From: Lachnospiraceae bacterium
Lineage (GTDB): Bacteria; Bacillota; Clostridia; Lachnospirales; Lachnospiraceae
Assembly (NCBI GenBank): GCA_014804245.1
Contig: JAAVAE010000009.1
Span: forward strand, 21,882-66,067
Direction: 5' to 3'
DNA: 44,186 nucleotides
The notes under the pieces: model-generated
Databases searched by the model: none
Told to the model about the DNA's origin: nothing
The model's input: the letters and a program-made list of their open reading frames with translations, nothing else
Position numbers and translations under genes: made by a program
In this document: positions 9,692-22,814 of the stretch, in pieces
How the letters are laid out: each line of letters begins with the position of its first letter
Numbering within the stretch: the stretch's first letter is position 1

Positions 9692-10651
9692 TTATATTCC
9701 AAGCACGGCTAGAAGGCAGAGCATTGCAGTAACAATGGAAAAGACTGCCACCACCTTCGTCTCCTTCCATCCGCACAATTCAAAGTGATGATGGAGCGGC
9801 GCCATTTTAAATATTCTTTTTCCCCCGCTTATCTTATAATAAACCACTTGTATGATAACCGACAGAACCTCAACTACATAAATAAGACCTACAATAGGCA
9901 GATACAAAGGCATCTGCATCATGTACGCACAAGCTGCCACAAATCCCCCCAGTGCCAGCGACCCGGTATCTCCCATGAACACACTTGCCGGATGCACATT
10001 AAACAGCAGAAAACCCAAAAGAGCACCTGTCACCGCACAGGTAATCGGTGCGATTCCCGCCCCTGTTCCGACAGCTGCCACCGTAAAAAAGGTCGCCACC
10101 ATTACCGTCACACTGCTCGCAAGACCGTCCAGTCCATCCGTGAAATTCGTGCCGTTGACCGTGCCGATTACTACCACAAATAAAAGCGGAATATCCAGCC
10201 TGCCGAAATCCACAAAATATCCCTTCATAAAAGGAATACGCATTGTCAGTGACACATCCGCTGCATTAAGAAGGTAATAAGCAAATATTCCGGTCACCAC
10301 GATCTGCAAAAACATTTTCTGCCAGGGCTTAAGCCCCATGGAACGCCGAAGCACTACTTTGATGTAGTCATCCAAAAAGCCAATCAGTCCAAAACCTAAC
10401 GTCAGGAACAAAACCGGCGTGATCTTCGGATAATCCTTTACATATAGTACAGATGTAACTGCCACACTGACCATAATCAGGATCCCCCCCATTGTAGGTG
10501 TCCCTGACTTTTTCAGATGGGTGCTTGGTCCGTCATCTCTTACAGTCTGCCCTGCTTTCAGCCTCTTAAGCAGGGGAATGATGAAGGGTCCAAGTGCCGC
10601 GCTTAATGCAAATGAAATCAGTATGGGCACGATAATAAAACTGCCTGCCAT
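9692..10651 (-). CDS. mraY: Phospho-N-acetylmuramoyl-pentapeptide transferase (MraY)
   Basis: MraY moves phospho-MurNAc-pentapeptide onto undecaprenyl phosphate, making lipid I at the membrane. About ten membrane helices are visible, with KKSGTPTMGGILI near residue 50, the DDYIKV motif near 93, NFTDGLDGLASS near 175 and a C-terminal MAPLHHHFEL motif, all diagnostic. The ATG at 10651 is preceded by GAGAGG with eight bases between; a GTG nine bases earlier is less likely. It starts 13 bp after the stop of the 3' PBP fragment, so in the present arrangement it lies downstream of the recombinase gene, not of the mraZ promoter. Confidence 0.97.
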   Translation of the reverse strand: MAGSFIIVPILISFALSAALGPFIIPLLKRLKAGQTVRDDGPSTHLKKSGTPTMGGILIMVSVAVTSVLYVKDYPKITPVLFLTLGFGLIGFLDDYIKVVLRRSMGLKPWQKMFLQIVVTGIFAYYLLNAADVSLTMRIPFMKGYFVDFGRLDIPLLFVVVIGTVNGTNFTDGLDGLASSVTVMVATFFTVAAVGTGAGIAPITCAVTGALLGFLLFNVHPASVFMGDTGSLALGGFVAACAYMMQMPLYLPIVGLIYVVEVLSVIIQVVYYKISGGKRIFKMAPLHHHFELCGWKETKVVAVFSIVTAMLCLLAVLGI

Positions 10652-10663
10652 AGCCTGCACCTC

Positions 10664-11305
10664 TCAATTATAATCCATTTTCCCCAAATAAGGAAGAATA
10701 TTTTCAAAAAGCTGCCTTACCACTGGTGCCGCCACCTGCCCGCCGTAGTAAACTCCCTGCGGATTATGGATGATGACAAGGGCAATCACCTGCGGATCAT
10801 CTGCCGGTGCAAAACCTACAAAAGAAGCAATGTATCTTCCGCTTCCTCTGGGAAGGGTCTGGCTGGTTGCCGTCTTCCCTCCCACTCTTGCACCCTCTAC
10901 GTATCCATTTTTCCCCGAACCATTTTCCACCACCTGCTCCAGCATCATCCGCATGGTAGCAGAGGTTTCCTCTGATACAATATGCTCTTTTACCGGATAG
11001 GAGAACCTTTCAATTTCAGTTCCCTCTCTGTTGGCAGTCATGACGGCAAGATGAGGCGTGATTCGGTTTCCTCCGTTTACGATGGAAGATGCTGTAGTGA
11101 TAAGCTGTATAGGCGTAATCTGAAAAGATTGCCCGAAAGATACGGTTGCCAGTTCCACAGCTTTCATATCTTCCATCTTGTGCATGATTGTTCCCGCCTC
11201 CCCCGGCAGATCCACACCGGTCTTACTTAAGAGCCCAAACTGGGTAAAATAACGATAGTAATTTTCCACCCCCAGCCGCAGACCTACCGTAATAAATACC
11301 GGGTT
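10664..11305 (-). CDS. spoVD: SpoVD-type PBP, 3' fragment (transpeptidase C-terminal part)
   Basis: The frame is open from the Asn codon at 11303-11305 and supplies 213 residues of a class B PBP transpeptidase domain. NPVF, the end of the SxN motif, is followed by LRLGVENYY, LLSKTGVDLPGE, and the third motif region VGGKTATSQTLPRG near residue 150, then SFVGFAPADDPQV. The third motif is KTA instead of KTG, which I believe also occurs in clostridial SpoVD proteins. The fragment has no start of its own apart from an internal GTG at 11269, and lacks the nucleophile Ser (STFK), which lies in the other fragment 8 kb away. Joined at the att core, the two parts give one continuous 576-residue ORF. 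Gene order (ftsL, PBP, PBP, mraY) names it spoVD; no PASTA domain is present. Confidence 0.92.
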   Translation of the reverse strand, partial: NPVFITVGLRLGVENYYRYFTQFGLLSKTGVDLPGEAGTIMHKMEDMKAVELATVSFGQSFQITPIQLITTASSIVNGGNRITPHLAVMTANREGTEIERFSYPVKEHIVSEETSATMRMMLEQVVENGSGKNGYVEGARVGGKTATSQTLPRGSGRYIASFVGFAPADDPQVIALVIIHNPQGVYYGGQVAAPVVRQLFENILPYLGKMDYN

Positions 11306-11316
11306 ACAGGTGTTTA
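11291..11316 (-). other. Attachment site at the recombinase end of the element
   Basis: On the minus strand ATAAACACC-TGTAA-CCCGG-TATTTAT. The shared core is CTGTAA (11304-11309 on the plus strand as TTACAG). The element-side half, ATAAACACC, is the inverted partner of GGTGTTTAT at the opposite end. The recombinase stop codon lies 8 bp outside this site. Confidence 0.85.
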
Positions 11317-11323
11317 TGAAACT

Positions 11324-12898
11324 CTAACGTTTTCCTGCATAAACGGCCTCCTTCCGGCATTCCCCTTCCGGTTCAAAGGAAATCAGAAGCCTGCCGTCCT
11401 TATGTACCTCAATCTGATGAATCTGCCTTAATAATGCTTTCGTGCCTGCTTTCTTAATCAGATTTTCGTTCCGGATTACAGTTTTTATATCTTCTATACG
11501 CGCCTCATAATTATTATATTGCAGATGGTTTTGCTTTATGCCGTCTATTTTGGATTCTATCAGTCTGCACCTGTCCGCTAAGTCGGCGCTGTGCTTTTCA
11601 TAATCCAGATCGCCAAGCACACCGCCAAGCAGCTTTTCTATCAGCATATCTTTTCTGGATATCAGCCTTTTATACTCCTTTTCAAGCTTTTTCAGTTCCT
11701 TTTCCCCACTTTGCGCTTCCAGTGCCTTTCTTAAGGTGTGCATTGCCTCGGCAAGCATCTGCTCCTCCTCCCAAAGCGGTTCACAATCATTTTTAAGGGC
11801 ATCCCCCACGCACATAAGAAGCTTTTCCTCCAAAAGATTGATATTGTCACATCCCCTTGCATGCGCCTTGCCCCCCGTCCTGCCGTTTTCCAGAAAGGTG
11901 GCGCATTTCCATACCACTTTTTTTCCTGTGCCGGAGGCATAGCAGGTTCGGTAATAATATCTCCCGCACTCTGCACACTTTAGTTTCCTAGACAATTCAT
12001 ATTTTCCGCCGCGCTTATCTTCGCAGGAACTAATTCCTCTCTGGCAGCTTCCGGCTCTCTTTTTCATAACAGCAATCACTTCCTCCTGGTATTCCCTTGA
12101 AACAATGGGCGGCAGGGCACTGTCCATGATGATCCAGTCTTCCTCCGGTACCTCCTCATACTTTTTCGTATCGAAATTGTAAGTCTTCCTATTTAATATC
12201 ATGGTCCCGTGAGCTCTTGGCGTATACAGCATTTTCCTCCATTGCACCTCAGATATTTTCTGTCCCCGTCTTCCCCTGGCGCCAAGCTCATACAAAGTGT
12301 TGCTTATGGTATAAAAGCCTTTTCCCTCCTTTGCCAACGCAAATGCGGTTCTATAGTACTCTGCTTCCTCCTCATTGACCTCATAGCGATCCTTCCCCAC
12401 CTTATTCCATCCAAACATATCGCAGGTGATATTGCACCCGCTCCTTTTCTGCTGCCTCCTCCTATGAGCATTTTTAATTTTCTTGGACAACTCTCTGCTA
12501 AAGTCCTCTGCCAATATCGCCTTGATGCCGGAAATCAGATTATCATCAGGAGTGTAAAATTTTCCTTCTATATATATATACAGTTTCAATCTGTTTTCTG
12601 TAAGCCTGCTTAAGAAAAAGTACCAATCCTTTGCCGAGCGCGTAAGCCTGTCAATGGATTTGATCATAACGATATCAAATCTGTCCTTTTCCATATCCTC
12701 CAGCAGCCTTTGATATTCTCCGCGCTTATATGCCACGGTCCCCGTCTGGGATTCGATATACTGTTCCACAATCAGCCATCCCTTTTTTTCCGCTATCTCC
12801 CTGCTCTCAACAGCCTGGGTTGCAAGCGCATTCTTCTGACTTTCCTCCTCCGTACTGCATCTGTTATAAATTCCCACTCTTTCCAACTTCTTCTCCAT
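11324..12898 (-). CDS. Large serine recombinase (site-specific integrase/excisionase)
   Basis: The protein of about 524 residues has the resolvase catalytic domain (GIYNRCSTEEES near residue 10 with the nucleophile Ser, and MIKSIDRLTRSAKDWY near 80 with the active-site arginines). A recombinase domain follows (near 160-270), then a zinc ribbon (CAECGRYYYRTC and WKC) and a long coiled coil near 390-460. This is the architecture of phage and skin-element integrases. ATG 12898 lacks a clear ribosome site and lies inside the end of the upstream small ORF, suggesting coupling; a TTG at 12937 behind AAGG is the alternative. The TAG stop (11324-11326) is in frame with the 3' PBP fragment. The gene ends 8 bp from the attachment site and is the obvious catalyst of the insertion. 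Confidence 0.95.
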   Translation of the reverse strand: MEKKLERVGIYNRCSTEEESQKNALATQAVESREIAEKKGWLIVEQYIESQTGTVAYKRGEYQRLLEDMEKDRFDIVMIKSIDRLTRSAKDWYFFLSRLTENRLKLYIYIEGKFYTPDDNLISGIKAILAEDFSRELSKKIKNAHRRRQQKRSGCNITCDMFGWNKVGKDRYEVNEEEAEYYRTAFALAKEGKGFYTISNTLYELGARGRRGQKISEVQWRKMLYTPRAHGTMILNRKTYNFDTKKYEEVPEEDWIIMDSALPPIVSREYQEEVIAVMKKRAGSCQRGISSCEDKRGGKYELSRKLKCAECGRYYYRTCYASGTGKKVVWKCATFLENGRTGGKAHARGCDNINLLEEKLLMCVGDALKNDCEPLWEEEQMLAEAMHTLRKALEAQSGEKELKKLEKEYKRLISRKDMLIEKLLGGVLGDLDYEKHSADLADRCRLIESKIDGIKQNHLQYNNYEARIEDIKTVIRNENLIKKAGTKALLRQIHQIEVHKDGRLLISFEPEGECRKEAVYAGKR

Positions 12899-13043
12899 TC
12901 TGAAATGACACAAATTCCCGCATTTCCTCACGGGCAATGATAACCTTCACAGCATTTTTCTCTGAACTGCTGATAAGCCCCCTTTCTGCCAGCAATTCTG
13001 AAAGGTGAATCAATATCTGCTCTCTCATTCCGCTTTTCTCCAT
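12864..13043 (-). CDS. Small ORF overlapping the recombinase start
   Basis: An ATG at 13043 behind AAGGGA (nine bases) opens a 59-residue frame: MEKSGMREQILIHLSELLAE, then RGLISSSEKNAVKVIIAREE, ending at TAA 12864. It is predicted to be mostly alpha-helical and overlaps the first codons of the recombinase by 35 bp. Similar short helical ORFs often precede clostridial serine recombinases, but I do not recognise a named family. Its position makes it a candidate regulator or recombination directionality factor; that is inference. Overlap and ribosome site support translation. Confidence 0.6.
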   Translation of the reverse strand: MEKSGMREQILIHLSELLAERGLISSSEKNAVKVIIAREEMREFVSFQNGEEVGKSGNL

Positions 13044-13139
13044 TATGCCGATTCCCTTAAAGTTTTACTTTAATATATTCTTTTCATGTCCAAATATTGA
13101 AAAATATGTTTAAAATGCTCGTCAATCCCTTGAAAACCA

Positions 13140-13168
13140 TTGACTTTAATGCTTTAAACTAGTATAAT
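13140..13168 (+). promoter_or_regulatory. Promoter of the ABC transporter operon
   Basis: TTGACT (13140-13145), 17 bp, TATAAT (13163-13168) on the plus strand. The predicted leader is about 45 nt and contains a small hairpin CAGTGA/TCACTG before the AGG-rich ribosome site. It is back to back with the recombinase leader. I see no T-box or other aptamer. Confidence 0.8.
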
Positions 13169-13218
13169 CTGATACGCAGTGATTTATTTCACTGTAATAT
13201 TTTATGGGAGGAACCATT

Positions 13219-14271
13219 ATGAAAAAAGCACTTGTTTTACTTTTAACCGCAGCTATGGTCAGCGGTCTTGTTGCTTGCGGAAGCCCTGCTTCAACCACTC
13301 AGGATGCATCCGCCTCTGAAAGCAGCACAGAAACCACAACCGAAGCAGATTCCGCCGACAGCGGAGAAATTACAAATGTGGAGGCAGACGGCACTGTATA
13401 CACAGTAGGTATCTGCCAGCTCGTACAGCATGAAGCATTAGATGCTGCTACACAGGGCTTTATGGATGCCCTGAGCGAAGAATTAGGCGATCAGGTTACC
13501 TTTGACGTCCAGAATGCACAGGGTGACTCTAATACCTGTTCTACTATCATCAACAGCTTTGTTTCAAGCAATACAGATTTAATTCTTGCTAACGCAACTC
13601 CTGCTCTGCAGGCTGCTGCAGCCGGAACAAACGAGATTCCGATTCTCGGAACTTCTGTTACAGAATACGGCGTAGCACTTGATATCGACAACTTCAGCGG
13701 TACTGTTGGCGGCAACATCTCCGGTACTTCCGATCTTGCTCCGCTTGACGGTCAGGCTGATATGCTTGCAGAATTATTCCCTGATGCAAAGACAGTAGGT
13801 CTGCTTTACTGTTCTGCTGAGGCAAATTCTCAGTATCAGGTAGACACCATCAAAGCATTTCTGGAAGAGAAAGGTTACAGCTGTGAGTATTACTCCTTCT
13901 CTGACTCCAACGATATTTCCGCTGTAACAACGAACGCAGTTGATTCCGTTGATGTTATCTACATTCCTACAGACAATACCGCTGCTTCCAACGCAGAACT
14001 GGTTAACAACATCTGCCTTCCTGCAGGTGTTCCAATCATTGCAGGCGAAGAAGGAATCTGTGCAGGATGCGGTGTTGCTACTTTGTCAATCAGCTACTAT
14101 GACATCGGTGTTGCTACCGGTAAGATGGCTGCAAAGATTCTTGCTGAAGGCGCAGACATCTCTACGATGCCTATCGAATATGCACCTACCTTCACTAAGA
14201 AATACAATGCAGCTAACTGTGAAGCACTGAATATCACCGTTCCCGATGATTATGTAGCAATCGGTGAGTAA
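13219..14271 (+). CDS. ABC transporter substrate-binding lipoprotein, TrpX/DUF534 family
   Basis: The start is ATG 13219, seven bases after GGGAGG. The precursor has a lipoprotein signal peptide with lipobox LVAC (Cys20), then an acidic Ser/Thr linker. From about residue 60 there is a two-lobe periplasmic-type domain with VGICQLVQHEALDAATQGF, the signature start of the ABC substrate-binding family PF04392 (TrpX-like, aromatic amino acid or related ligands). Lobe features include TNEIPILGTSVTEYG and GVPIIAGEEG. The next two genes encode the permease and ATPase. A terminator-like hairpin follows the gene, which would keep the binding protein more abundant than the membrane parts. The ligand cannot be read from the sequence. 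Confidence 0.9.
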   Translation: MKKALVLLLTAAMVSGLVACGSPASTTQDASASESSTETTTEADSADSGEITNVEADGTVYTVGICQLVQHEALDAATQGFMDALSEELGDQVTFDVQNAQGDSNTCSTIINSFVSSNTDLILANATPALQAAAAGTNEIPILGTSVTEYGVALDIDNFSGTVGGNISGTSDLAPLDGQADMLAELFPDAKTVGLLYCSAEANSQYQVDTIKAFLEEKGYSCEYYSFSDSNDISAVTTNAVDSVDVIYIPTDNTAASNAELVNNICLPAGVPIIAGEEGICAGCGVATLSISYYDIGVATGKMAAKILAEGADISTMPIEYAPTFTKKYNAANCEALNITVPDDYVAIGE

Positions 14272-14290
14272 TCTATTGACTAAAACCTTG

Positions 14291-14351
14291 CAGCGGGGGA
14301 ATTTATTCTCTCGCTGTTTTTATTAAAAATCGTTGCTTGGCAACGACGATT
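14291..14351 (+). terminator. Leaky terminator and second hairpin between binding protein and permease
   Basis: CAGCGGGGGAA (14291-14301) pairs with TTCTCTCGCTG (14306-14316) and is followed by TTTTTATT. A second hairpin, CGTTGC-TTG-GCAACG, lies at 14331-14345. No new promoter is evident before the permease, so partial readthrough is likely. Confidence 0.6.
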
Positions 14352-14400
14352 CAGAGAATGCTCCGCAGACTTACAGACCGCGGACAATTGGAGGGTAATC

Positions 14401-15333
14401 ATGAATATCTTGCACTTATTGAATTCTATGCCGGGAACCGTCGCACAGGGACTTATATGGGGTATCACGGCTATCGGTATTTACATCACTTACCGGATTC
14501 TTGACCTCGCGGATCTTACCGTTGACGGTTCCTTATGTACCGGCGGTGCCGTCTGCATTATGATGATGGTTTCCGGTCAGAACGTTTTTGTATCCATGCT
14601 CGTAGCCACCTTAGCCGGTATGTTGACCGGACTGGCGACGGGAATTTTTCATACCTTTATGGGTATTCCCGCTATTTTATCTGGTATTTTAACACAATTA
14701 GGGCTTTATTCCGTAAATTTGAAAATTATGGGAAAAGCGAATCAGGCAATTAACGTTGACAAATACAACCTTTTGGTTTCTTCACGATATATTAAAGGAG
14801 TAGATTTCTTCAAAAACACCATATTTATAGTCGCCATCTGTACACTTATACTGGTAGCTCTTCTTTACTGGTTTTTCGGTACAGAACTTGGATGCGCGCT
14901 GCGCGCAACCGGATGCAACGGCAATATGTCCCGCGCGCAGGGAATCAACACAGATTTCTCCAAGGTACTGGGACTTATGATTTCAAACGGTCTTGTAGGA
15001 TTATCCGGCGCCCTGCTGGCACAATATCAGGGATTTGCCGATATCAATATGGGCCGCGGCGCGATTGTCATCGGACTTGCCGCCGTCATCATCGGCGAAG
15101 CTGTCTTCGGACGCCTCTTCCACAACTTTGCACTTAAACTGATCAGTGTTGCCCTTGGCTCTATCCTTTATTATGTAGTTCTTCAGACAGTTGTATGGAT
15201 GGGCATTGTGGACACAGACAATTTGAAATTACTGACTGCACTTATCGTTGCTGTTTTTCTTGCCATTCCCTACTGGAAAGACAAATATTTCAGCAAAGCC
15301 GTTGTAAAGAATGGAGGCGAACCCAATGCTTGA
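14401..15333 (+). CDS. ABC transporter permease, TrpY-like (branched-chain type)
   Basis: A 310-residue hydrophobic protein with eight or nine membrane segments, of the BPD_transp_2 type that accompanies TrpX-like binding proteins. Typical segments are VAQGLIWGITAIGIYITYR, ILDLADLTVDGSL near residue 40, GCALRATGCNGNMSRAQGIN near 165 (the coupling loop toward the ATPase) and GLVGLSGALLAQYQGFADI near 205. ATG 14401 follows GGAGGG by five bases. Its stop overlaps the ATPase start by 11 bp, showing translational coupling. Confidence 0.9.
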   Translation: MNILHLLNSMPGTVAQGLIWGITAIGIYITYRILDLADLTVDGSLCTGGAVCIMMMVSGQNVFVSMLVATLAGMLTGLATGIFHTFMGIPAILSGILTQLGLYSVNLKIMGKANQAINVDKYNLLVSSRYIKGVDFFKNTIFIVAICTLILVALLYWFFGTELGCALRATGCNGNMSRAQGINTDFSKVLGLMISNGLVGLSGALLAQYQGFADINMGRGAIVIGLAAVIIGEAVFGRLFHNFALKLISVALGSILYYVVLQTVVWMGIVDTDNLKLLTALIVAVFLAIPYWKDKYFSKAVVKNGGEPNA

Positions 15334-16120
15334 AATCAAGAACGTCACAAAAATATTTAATCCCGGAACTGTAAATGAAAAACTGGCTTTAGACAATTTT
15401 TCTCTTACCCTTGAGGACGGCGATTTTGTCACTGTCATCGGAGGTAACGGTGCAGGCAAATCGACCATGATGAATGCCATCGCCGGCGCATGGACCGTGG
15501 ACGCTGGTCAGATTCTGATCGACGGCATTGATGTCACAAAGCTGCCTGAGCACAAACGCGCTAAATTCCTTGGACGTGTTTTCCAGGATCCCATGACCGG
15601 AACTGCGGCAACCATGGGAATCGAAGAGAATCTCGCACTGGCTAAACGCCGCGGCCACGCCCGCTTCCTAAGACCGGGCATCACCAAAAAAGAACGGGAA
15701 GAATACAGAGAACTGTTAAAAATATTGGATTTGGGTCTGGAAACCCGCCTTACCTCCAAGGTTGGCCTCTTATCCGGCGGACAACGCCAGGCACTGACTT
15801 TGCTCATGGCAACGCTCCAGAAACCCAAACTGCTCCTTTTAGATGAGCATACGGCAGCCCTTGATCCTAAGACTGCTGCAAAGGTTTTGGAAACTACGGA
15901 GTACATCGTGGGCAAGGATCATCTGACCACCCTTATGATCACTCATAATATGAAGGATGCTATTGTTCATGGGAACCGGCTGATCATGCTGATGGATGGG
16001 AAGATTATTCTGGATATCAGAGGAGAAGAAAAGAAAAAGCTGACGGTTAAGGAACTGCTGCAGAAGTTTGAGGCGGCAAGCGGAGAGGAATTTGCTAACG
16101 ATCAGGCGATTCTTGGGTAA
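15323..16120 (+). CDS. ABC transporter ATP-binding protein, TrpZ-like
   Basis: A 265-residue ABC ATPase: Walker A GGNGAGKSTMMNAIAG near residue 40, Q-loop VFQDPMTGTAATMGIEENL near 90, signature LLSGGQRQALTLLMA near 150, Walker B LLLLDEHTAALDP near 170 and the switch His in MITHNMKDA near 205. Asp-Glu in Walker B is intact, so it should hydrolyse ATP. ATG 15323 is eight bases after GGAGG; an ATG at 15311 would put the ribosome site inside the gene. It ends the ABC operon; palindrome copy 3 begins 36 bp after the stop. Confidence 0.93.
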   Translation, partial: PMLEIKNVTKIFNPGTVNEKLALDNFSLTLEDGDFVTVIGGNGAGKSTMMNAIAGAWTVDAGQILIDGIDVTKLPEHKRAKFLGRVFQDPMTGTAATMGIEENLALAKRRGHARFLRPGITKKEREEYRELLKILDLGLETRLTSKVGLLSGGQRQALTLLMATLQKPKLLLLDEHTAALDPKTAAKVLETTEYIVGKDHLTTLMITHNMKDAIVHGNRLIMLMDGKIILDIRGEEKKKLTVKELLQKFEAASGEEFANDQAILG

Positions 16121-16155
16121 CGAAAAGATTATTCCCTAAGTGTTAGGTTGTTGAA

Positions 16156-16468
16156 GGGAATGAAGGGATGCGGCGGGAGGTTTTTGGGGCCTGAGCATCC
16201 GGCGGATATAAAAAGATACTCCGGACCTATGTCCGGCAGTAAGAAGGGCTAGGCATCTCTTGGGTAGGATGTCTATGTTGACGCAAACGGCGTATTGGTC
16301 CATCCATGGACCAAGTTACGCCTTCCGCGGACGTCCTGTCCGCGGATTGCTGGGTGTCGAGAGAGATGCCAAGTCCTTCTAACTGCCTTCCATAAGGTTC
16401 CGGGGTATCTTTTTATATCCGCCGGATGCTCAGGCCCCAAAAACCTCCCGCCGCATCCCTTCATTCCC
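16156..16468 (-). repeat. Long palindromic element, copy 3
   Basis: Arms of about 60 bp are complementary (GGGAATGAAGGGATGCGGCG at 16156 against the arm ending at 16468). The conserved core reads on the minus strand with hairpins CCGCGGAC/GTCCGCGG and TTGGTCC/GGACCAA. It lies between the 3' ends of the convergent ABC ATPase and MATE genes, where it could also act as a two-way terminator. Short ORFs within it are artefacts of the palindrome. Confidence 0.85.
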
Positions 16469-16488
16469 CCGACACTTTGCTGTTCCCC

Positions 16489-17850
16489 TTATGTTGACCG
16501 ACTCCTCTGTCTTTCTTTACGAAGCATTATGCTAAAATAGATGCCGCAGAGTGTGATTTGCACGATTGTGGAGGCGGGTATGGCAAGGCCGATGTGGAAT
16601 AAGGATACTGGGATTTGTTTGCTCATAAGCCAAGTGATTGGCATTCGCACGCCAAATGCACAAATGGTTCCTTGGAGCATGACAAAGGTTGTTCTGCCGC
16701 ATCCGTTGAAGTAGCCTATAAAGCAGAACAAGAATGAAGTAAATATGCAGTCTATCGCATATGCTTTCAGATACTCAGCAGCTGCCAAAATAATTGCAGT
16801 GTCTTTGGCAAAGATGCCTGCCAGCAAATCACCGCGGAAAAAGGTGAATAAGCACATCACTATGCCTACCACCAAAGAGGACGCGATTCCGCACCACAAC
16901 GCTTTTCTTGCCCGCTCTGGTTTTCCGGCGCCAATATTCTGTGCAACAAAGGCAGACATGGACTGCATATAGGCAGAAGCAACCAGCATCAGGAAACCGC
17001 ACATTTTCTCTGCTACGCCAACGCCTGCTGAGACAACCAGTCCCAAACCATTCATAATAGCCAGGATTACAAGGAAAGAAATGCTTGCCAATAAATCTTG
17101 AAGCGCAATGGGAATTCCAAGCTTTAGTATTTTGCTGATATATATGCCCCTCGCCCGTATATCTTTTAAGGAAAAAGTAAACGGCAGTTCACGCCTCCGG
17201 ATGATAACCAGTGAAATCAATACGCTTACTGCCTGTGCAGATACTGTGGCAATCGCAGCCCCGGCTGCTCCCATATGGAAAAGGGCTACAAGAATCAAAT
17301 CTCCTACAATATTCAGAACGCAGGCAATGAATACTGTGATAAGCGGCACTTTTGAATCGCCGATTCCTCTGAAAATACTGCCTACCAAGTTATAGGCAAC
17401 AATAAATACCGTACCGACAGAACAGATTGTAATGTATGCAGCGGTTTCCCCATAAGCTTCCTCCGGAGCGTGCATTATTTCTGCCAGGAAAGGCGCTGCT
17501 GCGACCATTATCACCGTGAGCGCTATGGCAATCACCCCAAACAGCCAGATTCCGCTTCCGATAATCTTGCCAGCCTCATCTCTTTTCCCTTCACCGATTT
17601 TTCTGCCGACAAAGACAGTCAGCCCCATCGCAAGACCTGTAATCACAATCGTAAGCGTCTGCATGACCTGACTTCCGGTAGACACTGCCGATACAAAAAC
17701 ATCAGCCCGTTCACCGCCAAACTGCCCTACAATCAGCAGGTCACCCGCACCATACATAGTCTGCAAAAATAACGCCAATAATACCGGCAGTGCAAACCGT
17801 ATCAACGGCGCAAAGATTTTTCCTTCCGTGAAATTTTGTGTCTTTTCCAT
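16489..17850 (-). CDS. MATE family multidrug/cation exporter
   Basis: This 453-residue protein has twelve predicted membrane segments and the two-fold MATE layout: an N-terminal LIRFALPVLLALFLQTMYGAG helix with a following Q-rich region, AVSTGSQVMQ, then TVFVGRKIGEGKRDEA after helix 2-3 and the matching QNIGAGKPERARKA in the second half. These are characteristic MATE motifs. It uses a Na+ or H+ gradient to expel organic cations or drugs. ATG 17850 is preceded by AAGGAGG; the longer frame to 17895 runs through the regulatory hairpin. The gene faces the ABC operon and has its own promoter and a structured leader of about 160 nt. It is cargo of the spoVD element. Confidence 0.93.
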   Translation of the reverse strand: MEKTQNFTEGKIFAPLIRFALPVLLALFLQTMYGAGDLLIVGQFGGERADVFVSAVSTGSQVMQTLTIVITGLAMGLTVFVGRKIGEGKRDEAGKIIGSGIWLFGVIAIALTVIMVAAAPFLAEIMHAPEEAYGETAAYITICSVGTVFIVAYNLVGSIFRGIGDSKVPLITVFIACVLNIVGDLILVALFHMGAAGAAIATVSAQAVSVLISLVIIRRRELPFTFSLKDIRARGIYISKILKLGIPIALQDLLASISFLVILAIMNGLGLVVSAGVGVAEKMCGFLMLVASAYMQSMSAFVAQNIGAGKPERARKALWCGIASSLVVGIVMCLFTFFRGDLLAGIFAKDTAIILAAAEYLKAYAIDCIFTSFLFCFIGYFNGCGRTTFVMLQGTICAFGVRMPITWLMSKQIPVSLFHIGLAIPASTIVQITLCGIYFSIMLRKERQRSRST

Positions 17851-17870
17851 AAAATCCTCCTTCATCCAAA

Positions 17871-17977
17871 AACGCCGGATAAGATAACCGCACAAATACT
17901 GTTATCTTATCCGGCATCACACCATACGCTGTGCTTACCCTCCGATAAAAGCCCTATGCGACATCTTATCCGGCGTT
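17871..17977 (-). promoter_or_regulatory. Structured 5' leader of the MATE gene, candidate attenuator or riboswitch
   Basis: Three segments compete on the minus strand. A (17963-17977) AACGCCGGATAAGAT and B (17901-17915) GCCGGATAAGATAAC are repeats; C (17871-17888) is GTTATCTTATCCGGCGTT. C can pair with B over 15 bp, giving a hairpin followed by TTTTT, or with A over 15 bp. The element CATCGGAGGATG upstream is echoed by TTATCGGAGGGTAA between A and B. I do not recognise a known riboswitch class. Confidence 0.65.
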
Positions 17978-18015
17978 ACATTTACGAATTGCAACATCCT
18001 CCGATGAACGTTGTA

Positions 18016-18044
18016 ATTTTACTATGCATTTTACAAAATGTCAA
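18016..18044 (-). promoter_or_regulatory. Promoter of the MATE gene
   Basis: TTGACA (18039-18044), 17 bp, TAAAAT (18016-18021) on the minus strand. This predicts a start near 18009 and a 5' leader of about 160 nt, spanning the competing hairpins. Confidence 0.8.
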
Positions 18045-18228
18045 TAACCTTCAATTTCCTCAAAATGAAGCTTTCACCTAATTTCCATCTTTTGATTTTT
18101 GCACCGTTGGTGTGTTTTTTCTTGACAAAAACTTTATTTTTAATTACTCTATATATGTAGTGGTGTACATATATACTATTACTAAAACGTAGTCAGCAAA
18201 ACTGCAATATTTGAGGTAAAGAACAACT

Positions 18229-18831
18229 ATGGATGAGAAACTATATAAAGAGCTTAGTAAGCTAACAAAAGATAAAAACATATGGAAAGAGAATATCCCC
18301 TATATAGCCTCTTTACTTAAAAATCAATCCGCCAAAATAGTAGCTAAAGCATTGTGGCTGCTTGGTGAAATGGGCTTGCGATATCCGCAAGAGGCTGCGC
18401 CATATATAGGCGAGATTGCTACATTTATTGGTTCGGACAATGACTTGTTGAGAGAGCGCTCCGCTAATGCGCTGGGGAGAATTGGCAGAGCCGATTGCAA
18501 ACTTATTATGCCCTTTATGAACGAGTTGTGTTCCTTAGCAAAAGATAAAAGTCCCAATGTACGGTTGAGTTTTATATGGGCATCTGAAAATATCGCAACA
18601 AATGCACCGACAGTATATAAGGACTGTTTAACAATATTTGCAGACCTTCTAAATGATGAAAACGAAAGAGTGAGAATAGAAGCGCCAGAGATGTTTCGAG
18701 TTTTAGGAAAGCGCGTGCCAGAGTTTGTTGAGCCGTACTTAGATAAATTAAAAGATATGGCCGACCACGACGAGGTAAACGTAGTTCGTATTCATGCCGC
18801 AGGAGCAATCAAAGCTACAATTAGCCATTAA
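18229..18831 (+). CDS. HEAT-repeat protein
   Basis: A 200-residue, fully helical protein built of about five HEAT-like helix pairs. Repeats are seen at SAKIVAKALWLLGEMG, DNDLLRERSANALGRIG, SPNVRLSFIWASENIA, NERVRIEAPEMFRVLG and EVNVVRIHAAGAIK. Each has the Arg and Ala/Leu pattern of HEAT helices. Such small proteins are usually binding scaffolds. There is no signal peptide, so it is cytosolic. A GAGG lies 12 bases before ATG 18229. Upstream, TTGACA at 18123 has no clear partner at 17 bp, and an AT-rich dyad around 18160-18180 could be an operator. Its role in the element is unknown; its codon use is more AT-rich than the ABC genes beside it. Confidence 0.75.
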   Translation: MDEKLYKELSKLTKDKNIWKENIPYIASLLKNQSAKIVAKALWLLGEMGLRYPQEAAPYIGEIATFIGSDNDLLRERSANALGRIGRADCKLIMPFMNELCSLAKDKSPNVRLSFIWASENIATNAPTVYKDCLTIFADLLNDENERVRIEAPEMFRVLGKRVPEFVEPYLDKLKDMADHDEVNVVRIHAAGAIKATISH

Positions 18832-18913
18832 TGTTACAGAGGAATCGTCAGTTACGGGAAACAGCAAAGCATCAGGGGAATGACGGGATGCGAAGGAATA
18901 TGAATAACGTAGC

Positions 18914-19254
18914 GGGCAAATTGAAGCAGTGTGGTGGGCGGATTTTGGTGTCGTGGTGCCCGCGCTGAGGGCTGACGGTACAAAAAACCTCCCCAGAACC
19001 TTATGGGAAGTGGTTAGAAGGAGCCGTATCCCTTTAAATACCCAGCAATCCGCGGACAGGATGTCCGCGGAAGGCGTAACTTGGTCCACGGATGGACCAA
19101 TACGCCGTTTGCGTCAGCCTTGATAAACCTTCCAAGGGATACGCGCTCCTTCTTACCACTGTACATAGGTTCTGAGGAGGTTTTTTGTACCGTCAGCCCT
19201 CAGCGCGGGCACCACGACACCAAAATCCGCCCACCACACTGCTTCAATTTGCCC
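18914..19254 (+). repeat. Long palindromic element, copy 4
   Basis: Arms of about 80 bp are nearly perfectly complementary (GGGCAAATTGAAGCAGTGTG at 18914 against the arm ending at 19254). The core reads on the plus strand, with hairpins CCGCGGAC/GTCCGCGG and TTGGTCC/GGACCAA. It ends only 18 bp from the attachment site and lies 3' of the HEAT gene and of the 5' PBP fragment, whose frame runs into its arm and stops at 19200. Confidence 0.85.
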
Positions 19255-20375
19255 CCTCTTCTTCTCCGTTCCATAAACACCGGTTTACAGCTGTTCATGG
19301 TTGCCTGCACAAAGTTCTCCGCCCCATGCCCCGCAATTTTATGGCATCGAATCTTCCGATCCTCCACCATAATATACCCCGGACAGCTAAACTGATCCTC
19401 CGTAGTAACCACACCGCCCTCCAGCCCGGCTGCTGCTGTGATGATTTTGAAGGTGGAACCCGGTTCATACGTATCACTGATACATCCATTTCGCCACATC
19501 CCATTCAATAACTCCTGTTTTTTTTCTTCTGTAAGTCCTGTGGTATCTGTTCCATCCTGTAATGTATAAGGCTCGTTCAGATTAAATTCCGGCACATCCA
19601 CCATTGCCATGATTTCTCCATTTTGCGGGTTCATGACAATAATCGACACTCTGTCCGCCTCCTTGGTCTCCATAACCTGTTTTGCAAGCTGGGTGGCATA
19701 GCTTTGGATGTTCATATCCAGGCTGGTATAAAGGTCATTGCCCGCAATAGGCTCAACCCTCTCCTCCCCTGCCGCGTCAAGTTCCACTCCTTTGGCGTCC
19801 GTGACAGTGAGAATCATTCCATCCTCACCCCTTAAGTACTCTTCGTATTTGACCTCCAGACCAATAATACCCTGATTATCCCCTCCTGTAAATCCCAACA
19901 CCTTTGACGCCAGCGAATCATAGGGATAATAACGCTTATAGTCTTCATCTACCTTGACCCCTTCCAGATTATAGGCACGGATGGCATCTCCTATTTCTTT
20001 ATCCACATTGCTCTTGATTTTCTCTATAGCTGAATACTTTTCAACCCTCTTCCGCACATACTCCTCCGAAAGATCCAGCTCCTTACAAAGGACTTCTACG
20101 ATTTTATCAGGATCCTTAATCTGGTTATGTATGACGGAAATCGTGCAGACTGTTTTATTATCAGCTATGACGGTTCCGTTTGCATCCAGTATCCTTCCTC
20201 TTGCCGCTTTGATACTTCTTTCTCTTTCGTGAAGCTCCTTTGCCTTTTCCGTATAGTAATCTGACTGAAATACCATCAGATATACTAATCTTCCAGCAAG
20301 AACTACGAAAATGATAAGACATGCAAAAAAAATCGTGACAATCTTTTTTCTGTTATAGGTTTTGCTTTTAGTCAT
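19200..20375 (-). CDS. spoVD: SpoVD-type PBP, 5' fragment (N-terminus, dimer domain and nucleophile Ser)
   Basis: The genuine gene covers 20375 to 19287 (363 residues); the remaining codons to the stop at 19200 are read from element DNA. It begins with a basic head, one membrane segment (about residues 12-33), the PBP dimerisation domain (RGRILDANGTVIADN near 58) and the start of the transpeptidase with the nucleophile in YEPGSTFKI (Ser307, Lys310). It ends ATMNSC followed by Lys364, where an active PBP needs Asn. As it stands, the product lacks the Asn of SxN, the third motif and the C-terminal half, so it should not be catalytic. The ATG at 20375 is five bases after GAGG, which is buried in a hairpin stem. 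By gene order this is spoVD, needed for spore cortex in Bacillus. Confidence 0.92.
   Translation of the reverse strand: MTKSKTYNRKKIVTIFFACLIIFVVLAGRLVYLMVFQSDYYTEKAKELHERERSIKAARGRILDANGTVIADNKTVCTISVIHNQIKDPDKIVEVLCKELDLSEEYVRKRVEKYSAIEKIKSNVDKEIGDAIRAYNLEGVKVDEDYKRYYPYDSLASKVLGFTGGDNQGIIGLEVKYEEYLRGEDGMILTVTDAKGVELDAAGEERVEPIAGNDLYTSLDMNIQSYATQLAKQVMETKEADRVSIIVMNPQNGEIMAMVDVPEFNLNEPYTLQDGTDTTGLTEEKKQELLNGMWRNGCISDTYEPGSTFKIITAAAGLEGGVVTTEDQFSCPGYIMVEDRKIRCHKIAGHGAENFVQATMNSCKPVFMERRRRGGKLKQCGGRILVSWCPR
19272..19297 (-). other. Attachment site at the far end of the element
   Basis: On the minus strand TGAACAGC-TGTAA-ACCGG-TGTTTAT. The core CTGTAA matches the site at 11304-11309. GGTGTTTATG on the element side is the inverted partner of CATAAACACC at the recombinase end; the chromosome side encodes MNSC of the PBP. 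Confidence 0.85.
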
Positions 20376-20378
20376 AAA

Positions 20379-20428
20379 AACCTCATAGAAAAGGTATTAT
20401 TATAATCTATTACCTATTCTATGAGGTT
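20379..20428 (-). promoter_or_regulatory. Hairpin covering the spoVD ribosome site
   Basis: On the minus strand AACCTCATAGAA (20417-20428) pairs perfectly with TTCTATGAGGTT (20379-20390), with AGGTA/TACCT extending the stem, and TTTTT then ATG follows. The GAGG ribosome site is within the stem. The structure can act as an attenuator, a terminator, or a block to translation. Confidence 0.7.
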
Positions 20429-20443
20429 ATTCTTTTAAGATAT

Positions 20444-20585: not shown

Positions 20586-22814
20586 TTATTCTGCTGGTGT
20601 CGGTTCCGCGGAAGGCTCTGCCGTCCCCTCTTCTCCGCCGGCGCTTTGTCCCAAATCATAGCTTCCGCCAAGGGCGTGACCGGTTTCAGGATCCACATAT
20701 TCTCCGGTATTCGGATCTACCGCGTAGCCGGTAGCAGGATCAATAGGGAAAGTCTTCCATATTGCTTCCTTGGGCGCTTCTTCTTCACCTTCTCCATTGC
20801 CTTCGGGATTTTCCTCGCCGGATTCCCCATCAGGAGAGTCGCCTTCTTCCCCTTCTCCTTCCGTTACGGGAGGTGTCATGATTTCAATCTGCAGTGCTTC
20901 AAGTTCTTCAATTTCTTTTTCTGAAAGCTCTTCTGTCATGAATATCCCTTTATAAGGAAGTACTTCCGTGAGAATGTTCTTTACGATTCTGGTGGCAAAT
21001 TTTGCATCATCCATAATGCTTCCCGGAACATTCGGTCTGTCTACTACCACATATATGGCAATCTGCGGATCATCTATAGGCGCATATCCCATAAAAGATA
21101 CCACATACTCTCTGTTACCGCGGGGCAGGGTTTCGGCAGTTCCCGTTTTCCCGCCGATCAGATATCCGGCAGGTCTTGCGGTCTTTCCTGTTCCGTTTTC
21201 TCCGGATACCACCAGATTACACATTTCACGCACCTTAGCCGAAGTGCTCTCGGAAATCGTCTGCTTTAAGATTCTCGGTTCTATATTCTGTACCGTGGCC
21301 CCCGATGGGCTTACTATTTTACTGACCAGATGAGGTTCATAATAGTATCCGCCGTTTATCAGCGAACAGAATCCGCTTATCATCTGAATCATAGTGGCAT
21401 TGTATCCCTGTCCAAAGCTATTCGTCGCAAGGTCCGTCAGCCCCATGGTATCTTTGTTATAAACTACGCTTGCCGTTCTCGCCTCGCCCGCAAGATCAAT
21501 GTTTGTCTTAAGCCCGATATTAAAAATGTGCTGAAAATCCGTAAACGTATCTACCCCTGTAGCCATAGCGATATACATCATATTTACATTGCAGGATCTC
21601 TCCACTCCCTCTGCAATCGACAAATATCCATCACCATATTTATTGTGGCATTTGATATCATGGGTACCTACATGCAGCTTTCCTTCGCAATTATATTTCT
21701 CGTCTCCGATAATGCTTCCGCTTTCTATCCCTGCTGCTACGGTAAAGGGCTTTGAAACAGATCCAGGCTCATAAGTATCACTGATACAGAAATTTTTCCA
21801 CAGTGCATTCAACTGCCGGTAGAATGCCTCATTATCTTCCTCTATTGCTTTCACATTCTCTGCATTGATGTATTCCCCGGTTCTTTTTCCCTCTTCATCT
21901 AAAATAGGCATTCCAATGAGCGCATCCGTGTTTCTGGTGTCATTCAGGTCATAGACCGGATAACTCGCCATCGCCAGAATCCTTCCGGTGTTCACTTCCA
22001 TTATGATGCAGCCTGTATTTAAGGCGCCGCAGCCTTCATGCGCATTGTCTCTATACTGCTCGTCAAATTTTTTCAGATACTTTTCTACAATGCTTTGTAT
22101 ATTGATGTCAATCGTAGATACCACACTGTTGCCATCTTCGGCAGAAATCGTGGTTCTCTGCAGATTGGAATCATCGTTGAGATACCCATACTCCCTGCCG
22201 GGTGTTCCTGATAAAATATCATTATAATACTCTTCCAGTCCATAGGAGCCTATATTATCGCTTGTGGTAAATCCAATCACATCACAGGCAAGGGTATTTC
22301 CCGGATAGGTTCTCTTATATTCCTCTTCAAACCAAATTCCTTTTATCAGCGAATCTTCCGCACTCTGCATTTCCAGAAATCCTTCAATCTGCTCATATTC
22401 CAGGCGTCTTGCAAGCACGCGATAACGGGACGTATCCTTATTCGCTTCTATGTAAGCACGCACATCGGAAGTATCGATTCCCAACTGGCTCCGCAGTGCA
22501 TCAAGGGTAGGCTCAAGATATTCCTCCTTCTCTGACACTGCCACTGCATCCAGCACCACATTGTAAACCTTTTCGCTCGTTGCCAGAATGCTTCCATTGG
22601 CATCATAAATCGTACCTCTTTTAGCCGGAAGCGTGGTACTATCATATCTTTGCTGCGACAGAACCTGCTTTTTATATCGCTCGCCGTTATCTCTTGTAAT
22701 GGCAAACAACCGATAAGATAATCCCACAAAAGCCAGCAGTACCAATAAAAAAAGTACTACCAGCTTCTTTTGCATCTTAATTGTGAATTTACTATGCTTC
22801 CTTTTACTATCCAA
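20586..22814 (-). CDS. Class B penicillin-binding protein (division/sporulation transpeptidase, PbpB position)
   Basis: A complete 742-residue class B PBP that cross-links peptidoglycan. It has a short cytoplasmic head, one membrane segment (about 17-36), the dimer domain (RGTIYDANGSILATS near 66), and a transpeptidase domain with all three motifs intact: SVSK (Ser352), SCN (Ser407) and KTGTAE (Lys555). After residue 640 a low-complexity tail rich in Glu, Pro and Gly extends about 100 residues, longer than usual and without a PASTA domain. The TTG start at 22814 has only a weak AGGTG site; ATG 22775 is possible but would shorten the head. By gene order (ftsL then this gene) it matches pbpB, the essential division PBP. 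Since the next PBP is interrupted, this is probably the one in use during growth. Confidence 0.93.
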   Translation of the reverse strand: MDSKRKHSKFTIKMQKKLVVLFLLVLLAFVGLSYRLFAITRDNGERYKKQVLSQQRYDSTTLPAKRGTIYDANGSILATSEKVYNVVLDAVAVSEKEEYLEPTLDALRSQLGIDTSDVRAYIEANKDTSRYRVLARRLEYEQIEGFLEMQSAEDSLIKGIWFEEEYKRTYPGNTLACDVIGFTTSDNIGSYGLEEYYNDILSGTPGREYGYLNDDSNLQRTTISAEDGNSVVSTIDINIQSIVEKYLKKFDEQYRDNAHEGCGALNTGCIIMEVNTGRILAMASYPVYDLNDTRNTDALIGMPILDEEGKRTGEYINAENVKAIEEDNEAFYRQLNALWKNFCISDTYEPGSVSKPFTVAAGIESGSIIGDEKYNCEGKLHVGTHDIKCHNKYGDGYLSIAEGVERSCNVNMMYIAMATGVDTFTDFQHIFNIGLKTNIDLAGEARTASVVYNKDTMGLTDLATNSFGQGYNATMIQMISGFCSLINGGYYYEPHLVSKIVSPSGATVQNIEPRILKQTISESTSAKVREMCNLVVSGENGTGKTARPAGYLIGGKTGTAETLPRGNREYVVSFMGYAPIDDPQIAIYVVVDRPNVPGSIMDDAKFATRIVKNILTEVLPYKGIFMTEELSEKEIEELEALQIEIMTPPVTEGEGEEGDSPDGESGEENPEGNGEGEEEAPKEAIWKTFPIDPATGYAVDPNTGEYVDPETGHALGGSYDLGQSAGGEEGTAEPSAEPTPAE

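Follow-up and report, generated by a model that had tools for sequence, protein, structure and literature searches.

A 44,186-nt stretch of a draft Lachnospiraceae genome (assembly GCA_014804245.1, contig JAAVAE010000009.1, forward-strand positions 21,882–66,067; hereafter the window, numbered from its first letter) carries the sporulation gene spoVD in two parts, separated by a block of 7,981 bp with a gene for a large serine recombinase at its edge. We regard it as highly probable that this block is a skin-like gene-intervening element, excised from spoVD in the mother cell by its own recombinase, and a spore-forming cell would probably have to cut it out. The ends of the block match exactly, and its removal is predicted to restore spoVD to the letter. 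The same codon is broken, with a related recombinase alongside, in many other assemblies including two named strains, which argues that the split did not arise by chance.

On the minus strand of the window, the two parts of spoVD were flanked by a penicillin-binding protein (PBP) gene (20586–22814) and by mraY (9692–10660). The 5′ part (19285–20375; codons 1–363 plus a shared AA dinucleotide) starts at 20375 and ends in ...ATM-N-S-C-K (AAC AGC TGT AAA, with AAA at 19286–19284), its open frame continuing inside the element as far as 19200. The 3′ part (10664–11305, minus strand; shared AA to stop codon) reads N-T-C-N-P (AAC ACC TGT AAC CCG) from 11314, ends at 10664 and has an in-frame stop codon immediately upstream. 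Scored apart against the NCBIfam profile TIGR02214 (spoVD), the halves reached 316 bits (profile positions 2–349) and 234 bits (349–559) and spanned positions 2–559 of 636, the curated cut-off for a full-length match being 688 bits; the adjacent 742-aa PBP scored 394 bits over positions 3–573. A crossover at the shared AA (19286–19285/11305–11304) takes out 7,981 bp (11306–19286, one AA counted) and leaves one 576-codon frame. A first-pass annotation, made from the letters of the window alone, had proposed that a serine-recombinase element of about 8 kb splits spoVD in its SxN motif, with exchange at the AA giving a single 576-codon frame; the junction computation bore out both points, the motif being Ser-Cys-Asn.

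In all 18 carriers with both ends read (genomes G427 and G227, read on the 5′ side only, are left out of the junction counts), a crossover at AA produced an in-frame Asn-Ser-Cys-Asn-Pro. Joined SpoVD was 576 aa long in 14 of the 17 cases measured and 574, 578 and 586 aa in the others (genome G430, read from two contigs, L088 and L035, is not among the 17), and intact SpoVD of congeneric genomes was 576 aa long in 13 of 14 cases and 599 aa in one. The crossover codon on the 5′ side was AAC (Asn) in nine of the 18 carriers, AAA in four and AAG in five. The earlier suggestion that integration turns this Asn into Lys therefore holds for the window (AAA) and fails as a general rule, AAC being kept in half of the carriers.

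The predicted circle junction formed an inverted repeat with 8–15 of 16 matches and a mean of 0.76 at the AA axis, the best of 75 axes; the runner-up (0.71) was the same axis with a different centre, and the next distinct axis reached 0.39. The joined chromosomal site was less symmetric (0.49 at the AA axis). Among approximately 4,900 other positions per locus (4,133 for the G430 pair), none was as good in six of 11 loci, and one to ten were as good in the other five. In the window, the 5′-side junction (19269–19286, minus strand) comprises AA and the right half of the predicted circle junction (AA followed by ACCGGTGTTTATGGAA), and the 3′-side junction (11304–11321, minus strand) its left half (TTTCATAAACACCTGT followed by AA); 14 of 16 positions of the 5′-side junction matched 11306–11321 as an inverted repeat across the AA. 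Judged from the sequences, this symmetry would fix AA as the point of exchange without use of the reading frame, which then agrees with it. The AA favoured in the first-pass annotation, one of several dinucleotides within the shared CTGTAA, is thus selected independently by the symmetry axis, and the element appears to be bounded by two recombination sites that have the AA core in common.

The recombinase gene (11324–12898, minus strand; 524 aa from the ATG of MEKKLERVGIYNRCSTEEE, with the open reading frame (ORF) as listed beginning at TTG 12937) lies at the element edge adjoining the 3′ part of spoVD. Its product matched the Pfam resolvase catalytic (PF00239) and recombinase (PF07508) domains above cut-off and the zinc ribbon (PF13408) at 24.7 bits, slightly below the cut-off of 25.3. 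Across carriers, the recombinase frame was open from the catalytic motif to the end (510–611 codons) in 18 of 18; in four of these no ATG was detected by script ahead of the motif, and another start is assumed. Developmental excision by a serine recombinase is also known for the fdxN element of heterocyst-forming cyanobacteria and its recombinase XisF. The XisF family (NF041201) gave the best NCBIfam match of the window recombinase, at 72 bits against a cut-off of 375, which places the latter outside that family.

A recombinase search with one genome per species returned seven relatives, all from Lachnospiraceae or unplaced Bacillota records and all adjoining a spoVD part. Six had both spoVD parts and an ATP-binding cassette (ABC) transporter operon on one contig; in the seventh a contig end interrupts the locus, the other half of which was also located. 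Among 37 congeneric genomes, 35 had a spoVD match (absent in G413 and G414), 17 of them split at this codon and 18 intact; 15 of the intact genes were read across the site, and those of G436, G410 and G415 were judged from frame length alone. Such intact genes, for which the first-pass annotation had suggested looking in relatives, are naturally empty sites. Parablautia muri strain D42-62 and Lachnospiraceae bacterium IMSAGC_005 were the named strains among carriers. Of the 17 congeneric carriers, 16 had a recombinase at least 49% identical, the remaining carrier being on a contig that stops within the element; none of the 20 other congeners had one. ABC-transporter genes lay inside the element in 17 of 17 congeneric carriers, the contig of G427 ending within them, and the permease match was single in each of nine genus carriers tested. 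Loci L031–L037 were assigned to genomes G412, G422, G409, G437, G430, G423 and G404, in that order, from agreeing contig numbers and positions.

Beyond the genus, 257 of 397 genomes in a family sample matched spoVD at the set threshold, and at least five short spoVD frames (window genome, one congener, G064, G122 and G227) were seen among the matches listed. Two genomes of other genera, G064 and G122, carried a different block at the same spoVD codon; their recombinases belong to the same lineage, and their cargo differs. In G227, also of another genus, spoVD breaks at the same codon (L073, 5770–6228); 425 bp beyond the match, the contig stops. In a class sample, none of 390 other genomes matched the recombinase at E 1e-110 or better, a threshold that the G064 and G122 recombinases would pass. 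In the matches listed, few candidates were scored in each genome, no more than three in the recombinase searches (family and class samples) and no more than five in the spoVD search. A pattern-limited search of viral contigs found no relatives of the recombinase.

Both halves of spoVD are under strong purifying selection, like their intact relatives. The median ratio of non-synonymous to synonymous substitution rates (dN/dS) in the 5′ part was 0.027 for split (9 pairs) and 0.024 for intact genes (5 pairs), and in the 3′ part 0.041 (74 pairs) and 0.058 (49 pairs), respectively, with a maximum of 0.064 among carrier pairs in either fragment; it was 0.121 for the recombinase (7 pairs) and 0.107, 0.062 and 0.039 for the three ABC genes. 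Only pairs with a synonymous divergence (pS) of up to 0.65 were used, many too-diverged pairs being dropped, and the pairs are non-independent, so these values indicate constraint and are no test between split and intact groups. Collectively, the empty congeneric sites, the in-frame rejoining in 18 of 18 carriers, the symmetry of the circle junction, the open recombinase frame and purifying selection support the earlier proposal of a skin-like interruption removed by a recombinase.

In a recombinase tree, the 11 recombinases located at spoVD made up one side of a branch with 100/100 support, opposite 21 other recombinases of the family, and a recombinase lineage specific for spoVD forms part of our best explanation. 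Supported recombinase groups within the genus agreed with supported host groups, which points to stable inheritance; the element seems to have been inherited vertically within the genus and cleanly lost from some lineages. Intact genomes nested among carriers numbered four (G429, G408, G431 and G438, the last only 59% complete), and none of them had an ABC match, which is what loss of the entire element would predict. A first host tree, in which nine carriers formed one exclusive clade, overstated this exclusivity, since the genus search added intact congeners; in the host tree including G122 and G064, the split state takes five changes. The recombinase of G423 (L036) is unusually divergent, being 49% identical to that of the window, whereas the ABC genes of this carrier lie among the genus operons. 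One tree grouped this recombinase with those of G122 and G064 (93/96); a second put it apart from the remaining 15 of the genus (92/92). Replacement, separate insertion or fast change may each account for this. A permease match elsewhere in the genome was seen in 10 of 20 non-carriers. In four intact congeners (L146, L147, L148 and L149), the ABC operon stood in dissimilar chromosomal contexts, and no recombinase relative was found near it in the 11–12 kb examined.

In Bacillus subtilis, spoVD is a sigma-E cortex gene, spoIVA is likewise listed among sigma-E genes (PMC517825), and cortex formation requires the transpeptidase activity of SpoVD (PMC3906833). Clostridioides difficile without spoVD grows normally and lacks cortex (PMC10693644). 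In C. difficile SpoVD, the Cys that stands between Ser and Asn serves as a zinc ligand, and the B. subtilis protein shares the motif and also binds zinc (PMC9334274); as the insertion site falls on this motif, imprecise excision would be expected to damage the active site. In the mechanism we propose, the edge-encoded large serine recombinase would join the two sites sharing the central AA and delete the block as a circle, which would restore the 576-codon spoVD and complete the Ser-Cys-Asn motif at the crossover. Because selection has preserved both halves in spite of their separation in the inherited chromosome, excision is most likely a regular event of sporulation. It would take place in the mother cell: SpoVD does its work on the cortex there, and a block lost there is not lost to descendants; SpoVD for the cortex would be made after the deletion, and the ABC-transporter operon would ride along as a passenger.

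Regulation of this event may lie within the element. A small ORF of 59 aa (12864–13043, minus strand) overlaps the recombinase start, and all 18 carriers have a counterpart upstream of the recombinase, identified by script in 11 and judged by eye in seven. The examples scanned gave no confident Pfam or PHROG assignment. This ORF would head the recombinase operon, and its product is a candidate directionality factor. Sigma-E scored above cut-off in 11 of 11 carriers tested and spoIVA in 10 of 11, the match in the window genome being partial and at a contig start; together with nearest relatives that are Lachnospiraceae records, these matches agree with the earlier description of the host as a Lachnospiraceae-like spore former. 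A sigma-E-like sequence (GAATAAC-N14-AATAGATT; 20404–20432, minus strand) precedes spoVD, and a loose pattern of a GAATAAC-like site, N14 and a [CA]ATA-like site was matched upstream of spoVD in 29 of 31 genomes; upstream of spoIVA in the same bacteria, TAATAAA, N14 and CATACATT or near variants occurred in 10 of 10. A hairpin-like sequence (AACCTCATAGA...TCTATGAGGTTTTT) at 20376–20432, directly before the spoVD start, overlaps the promoter-like site and, by eye, is similar in most relatives aligned; it is possibly a terminator or a leader control.

Upstream of the small ORF, the window has a promoter-like CAATATT-N13-AATATATT (13072–13099, minus strand) of suggestive sigma-E character. A −10-like box, [CA]ATATA[TCA]T, fell within the scanned interval upstream of the small ORF and recombinase in 17 of 18 loci, a count for which no chance rate was computed; the box lay far upstream in two loci, and a fitting −35 was seen by eye in about half. 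A first promoter test, on 11 loci with a B. subtilis consensus, gave a sum of 134 against a shuffled maximum of 126, and a second, on 18 loci with the spoIVA promoters of the same bacteria, gave 181 against a maximum of 140 in 200 shuffles. A sigma-E-like promoter ahead of the small ORF and recombinase is accordingly no more than suggested by these scores, and is kept at that level on account of the excess in an ABC-permease control described below and of the spoIVA-derived scan of the window, the top match of which was not at the proposed CAATATT box.

Several observations weigh against excision in the mother cell as we envisage it. In the promoter test, only six of the 18 loci reached p 0.05 singly, and the window was not one of these; of three control regions, one (ABC permease) likewise beat its own shuffles. 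The circle junction of G435 is weak (8 of 16 matches), and G227 is missing from the genomes that matched the recombinase. Neither an excised circle nor a joined junction came to light: in the window's own assembly the split gene is the single spoVD match, and the circle-junction pattern had no match in viral contigs. Our literature search found nothing on spores in Parablautia. Finally, C. difficile SpoVD also helps to form the polar septum (PMC10693644), a role that would call for SpoVD before sigma-E acts in the mother cell; this role may not apply here, given that a second PBP gene adjoins spoVD.

The weakness of the evidence for developmental control leaves some room for phase variation, in which the element would excise at low frequency in vegetative cells and only a small spoVD-positive subpopulation would sporulate. 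Split and intact genes are both fixed states in the genus, and the nested intact genomes look like clean losses. Frequent vegetative excision should, however, cure cells of an element among whose proteins no replication gene was recognised, and the agreement of recombinase with host subclades speaks for stable inheritance; we consider phase variation unlikely. Distinctly unlikely, too, is that spoVD is the mere landing place of a site-preferring mobile element whose excision serves transfer. Carriers outside the genus, two of them fully read and with different cargo, do imply repeated insertion at one codon, but neither transfer nor replication genes were recognised among the element proteins scanned, and inheritance within the genus looks vertical.

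The remaining possibilities were rejected. That SpoVD functions as two polypeptides would accord with the conservation of both halves despite their separation, but many carriers have an in-frame stop immediately upstream of the 3′ part, and the in-frame junction, the site symmetry and the recombinase would go unexplained, which makes this very improbable. Still less credible is a dead insertion, with spoVD a pseudogene in a lineage that no longer sporulates: an 8-kb insertion in an active-site motif, in an assembly that is 59.7% complete (59 contigs), could be so read, yet carrier dN/dS did not exceed 0.064, the frame was kept in 18 of 18 carriers, and sigma-E and spoIVA were matched in all 11 carriers tested. 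An assembly artefact or chimera, for which the incomplete draft state of the window's assembly might speak, can be dismissed with near certainty in view of the same arrangement in many other assemblies, P. muri D42-62 and IMSAGC_005 included.

The cargo of the element in the window consists of ordinary genes. Divergent from the recombinase on the plus strand are genes for an ABC transporter substrate-binding protein (13204–14271; TrpX-like, under the TrpX cut-off), permease (14401–15333) and ATPase (15311–16120). Extra cargo comprises a MATE-family transporter gene (16489–17895, minus strand) and a HEAT-repeat protein gene (18229–18831, plus strand). These two are flanked by large palindromic repeats at 16156–16468 and 18911–19257, the second adjoining the 5′ junction. 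The first repeat had 36 matches in its own genome, some of them representing both strands or pieces of one copy; the repeats belong to a dispersed, MITE-like family (miniature inverted-repeat transposable elements), which may have brought in the extra cargo. In the G405 element, an IS110-type transposase gene (L121, 9063–10274) separates the ABC permease gene from that of the ATPase. The element of G064 (L040, 5326–13018) has no ABC operon and encodes a glycerol kinase-type (FGGY) protein, FAD oxidoreductases, a DUF1667 protein and a VanW-like protein, and that of G122 (L039, 6008–9910) an Hsp70-family protein, a chemoreceptor and a protein with a weak DUF4870 match. Pfam recognised no phage structural or replication families among six element proteins of the window and eight of the G122 and G064 elements; the PHROGs scan covered the recombinase and two small ORFs. 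Recombinase apart, no phage gene was recognised among the proteins scanned, the other genus elements not having been scanned in full.

Sporulation genes reported as interrupted include sigK, spsM, spoVFB, spoVR, gerE and yabG (PMC5025042, PMC4191935, PMC5595907, PMC10747680). A close parallel may be drawn with skinCd in sigK of C. difficile, where an internal large serine recombinase restores a split sporulation gene; skinCd is prophage-like and has a known directionality factor, CD1234 (PMC5025042), whereas the spoVD element carries ordinary cargo genes and its directionality factor is only a candidate. The large serine recombinase that likewise removes the skin element from sigK of B. subtilis is produced in the mother cell under sigma-E control (PMC5025042, PMC4191935, PMC517825), but the skin element is prophage-like and sits in another gene, and its recombinase gene also needs SpoIIID. 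Like the spoVD element, gin in gerE of Bacillus cereus ATCC10987 is a non-prophage element in a sporulation gene (PMC5595907); gene and host differ, and the likeness is drawn without a comparison of gene content. The elements vfbin (spoVFB), vrin (spoVR), SP-beta (spsM) and yin (yabG) also lie inside sporulation genes, but are prophages or carry phage-related genes, and in the available text none is in spoVD (PMC4191935, PMC10747680). As an experimental secondary site of ICEBs1, spoVD did not permit detectable excision (PMC3715440). No natural element in spoVD was found in the literature covered, outside which preprints and most subscription papers fell.

With this element, spoVD joins the sporulation genes seen interrupted in this manner, and the phenomenon extends to gut Lachnospiraceae. 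Split and naturally empty states within one genus, with named strains among carriers, offer a comparative system for the persistence of such elements, and intervening elements without recognised phage genes, the recombinase apart, can carry ordinary operons. A broader idea, which we put forward tentatively and with slightly more doubt than belief, is that spoVD-targeting recombinases have built gene cassettes, in which ordinary operons are deleted from every mother cell with the help of a new kind of small directionality factor. The cargo differs by genus: an ABC transporter, a glycerol kinase and oxidoreductase set, or an Hsp70 and chemoreceptor pair. If the idea is true, such cassettes would remove normal genes from a terminal cell line in a programmed way.

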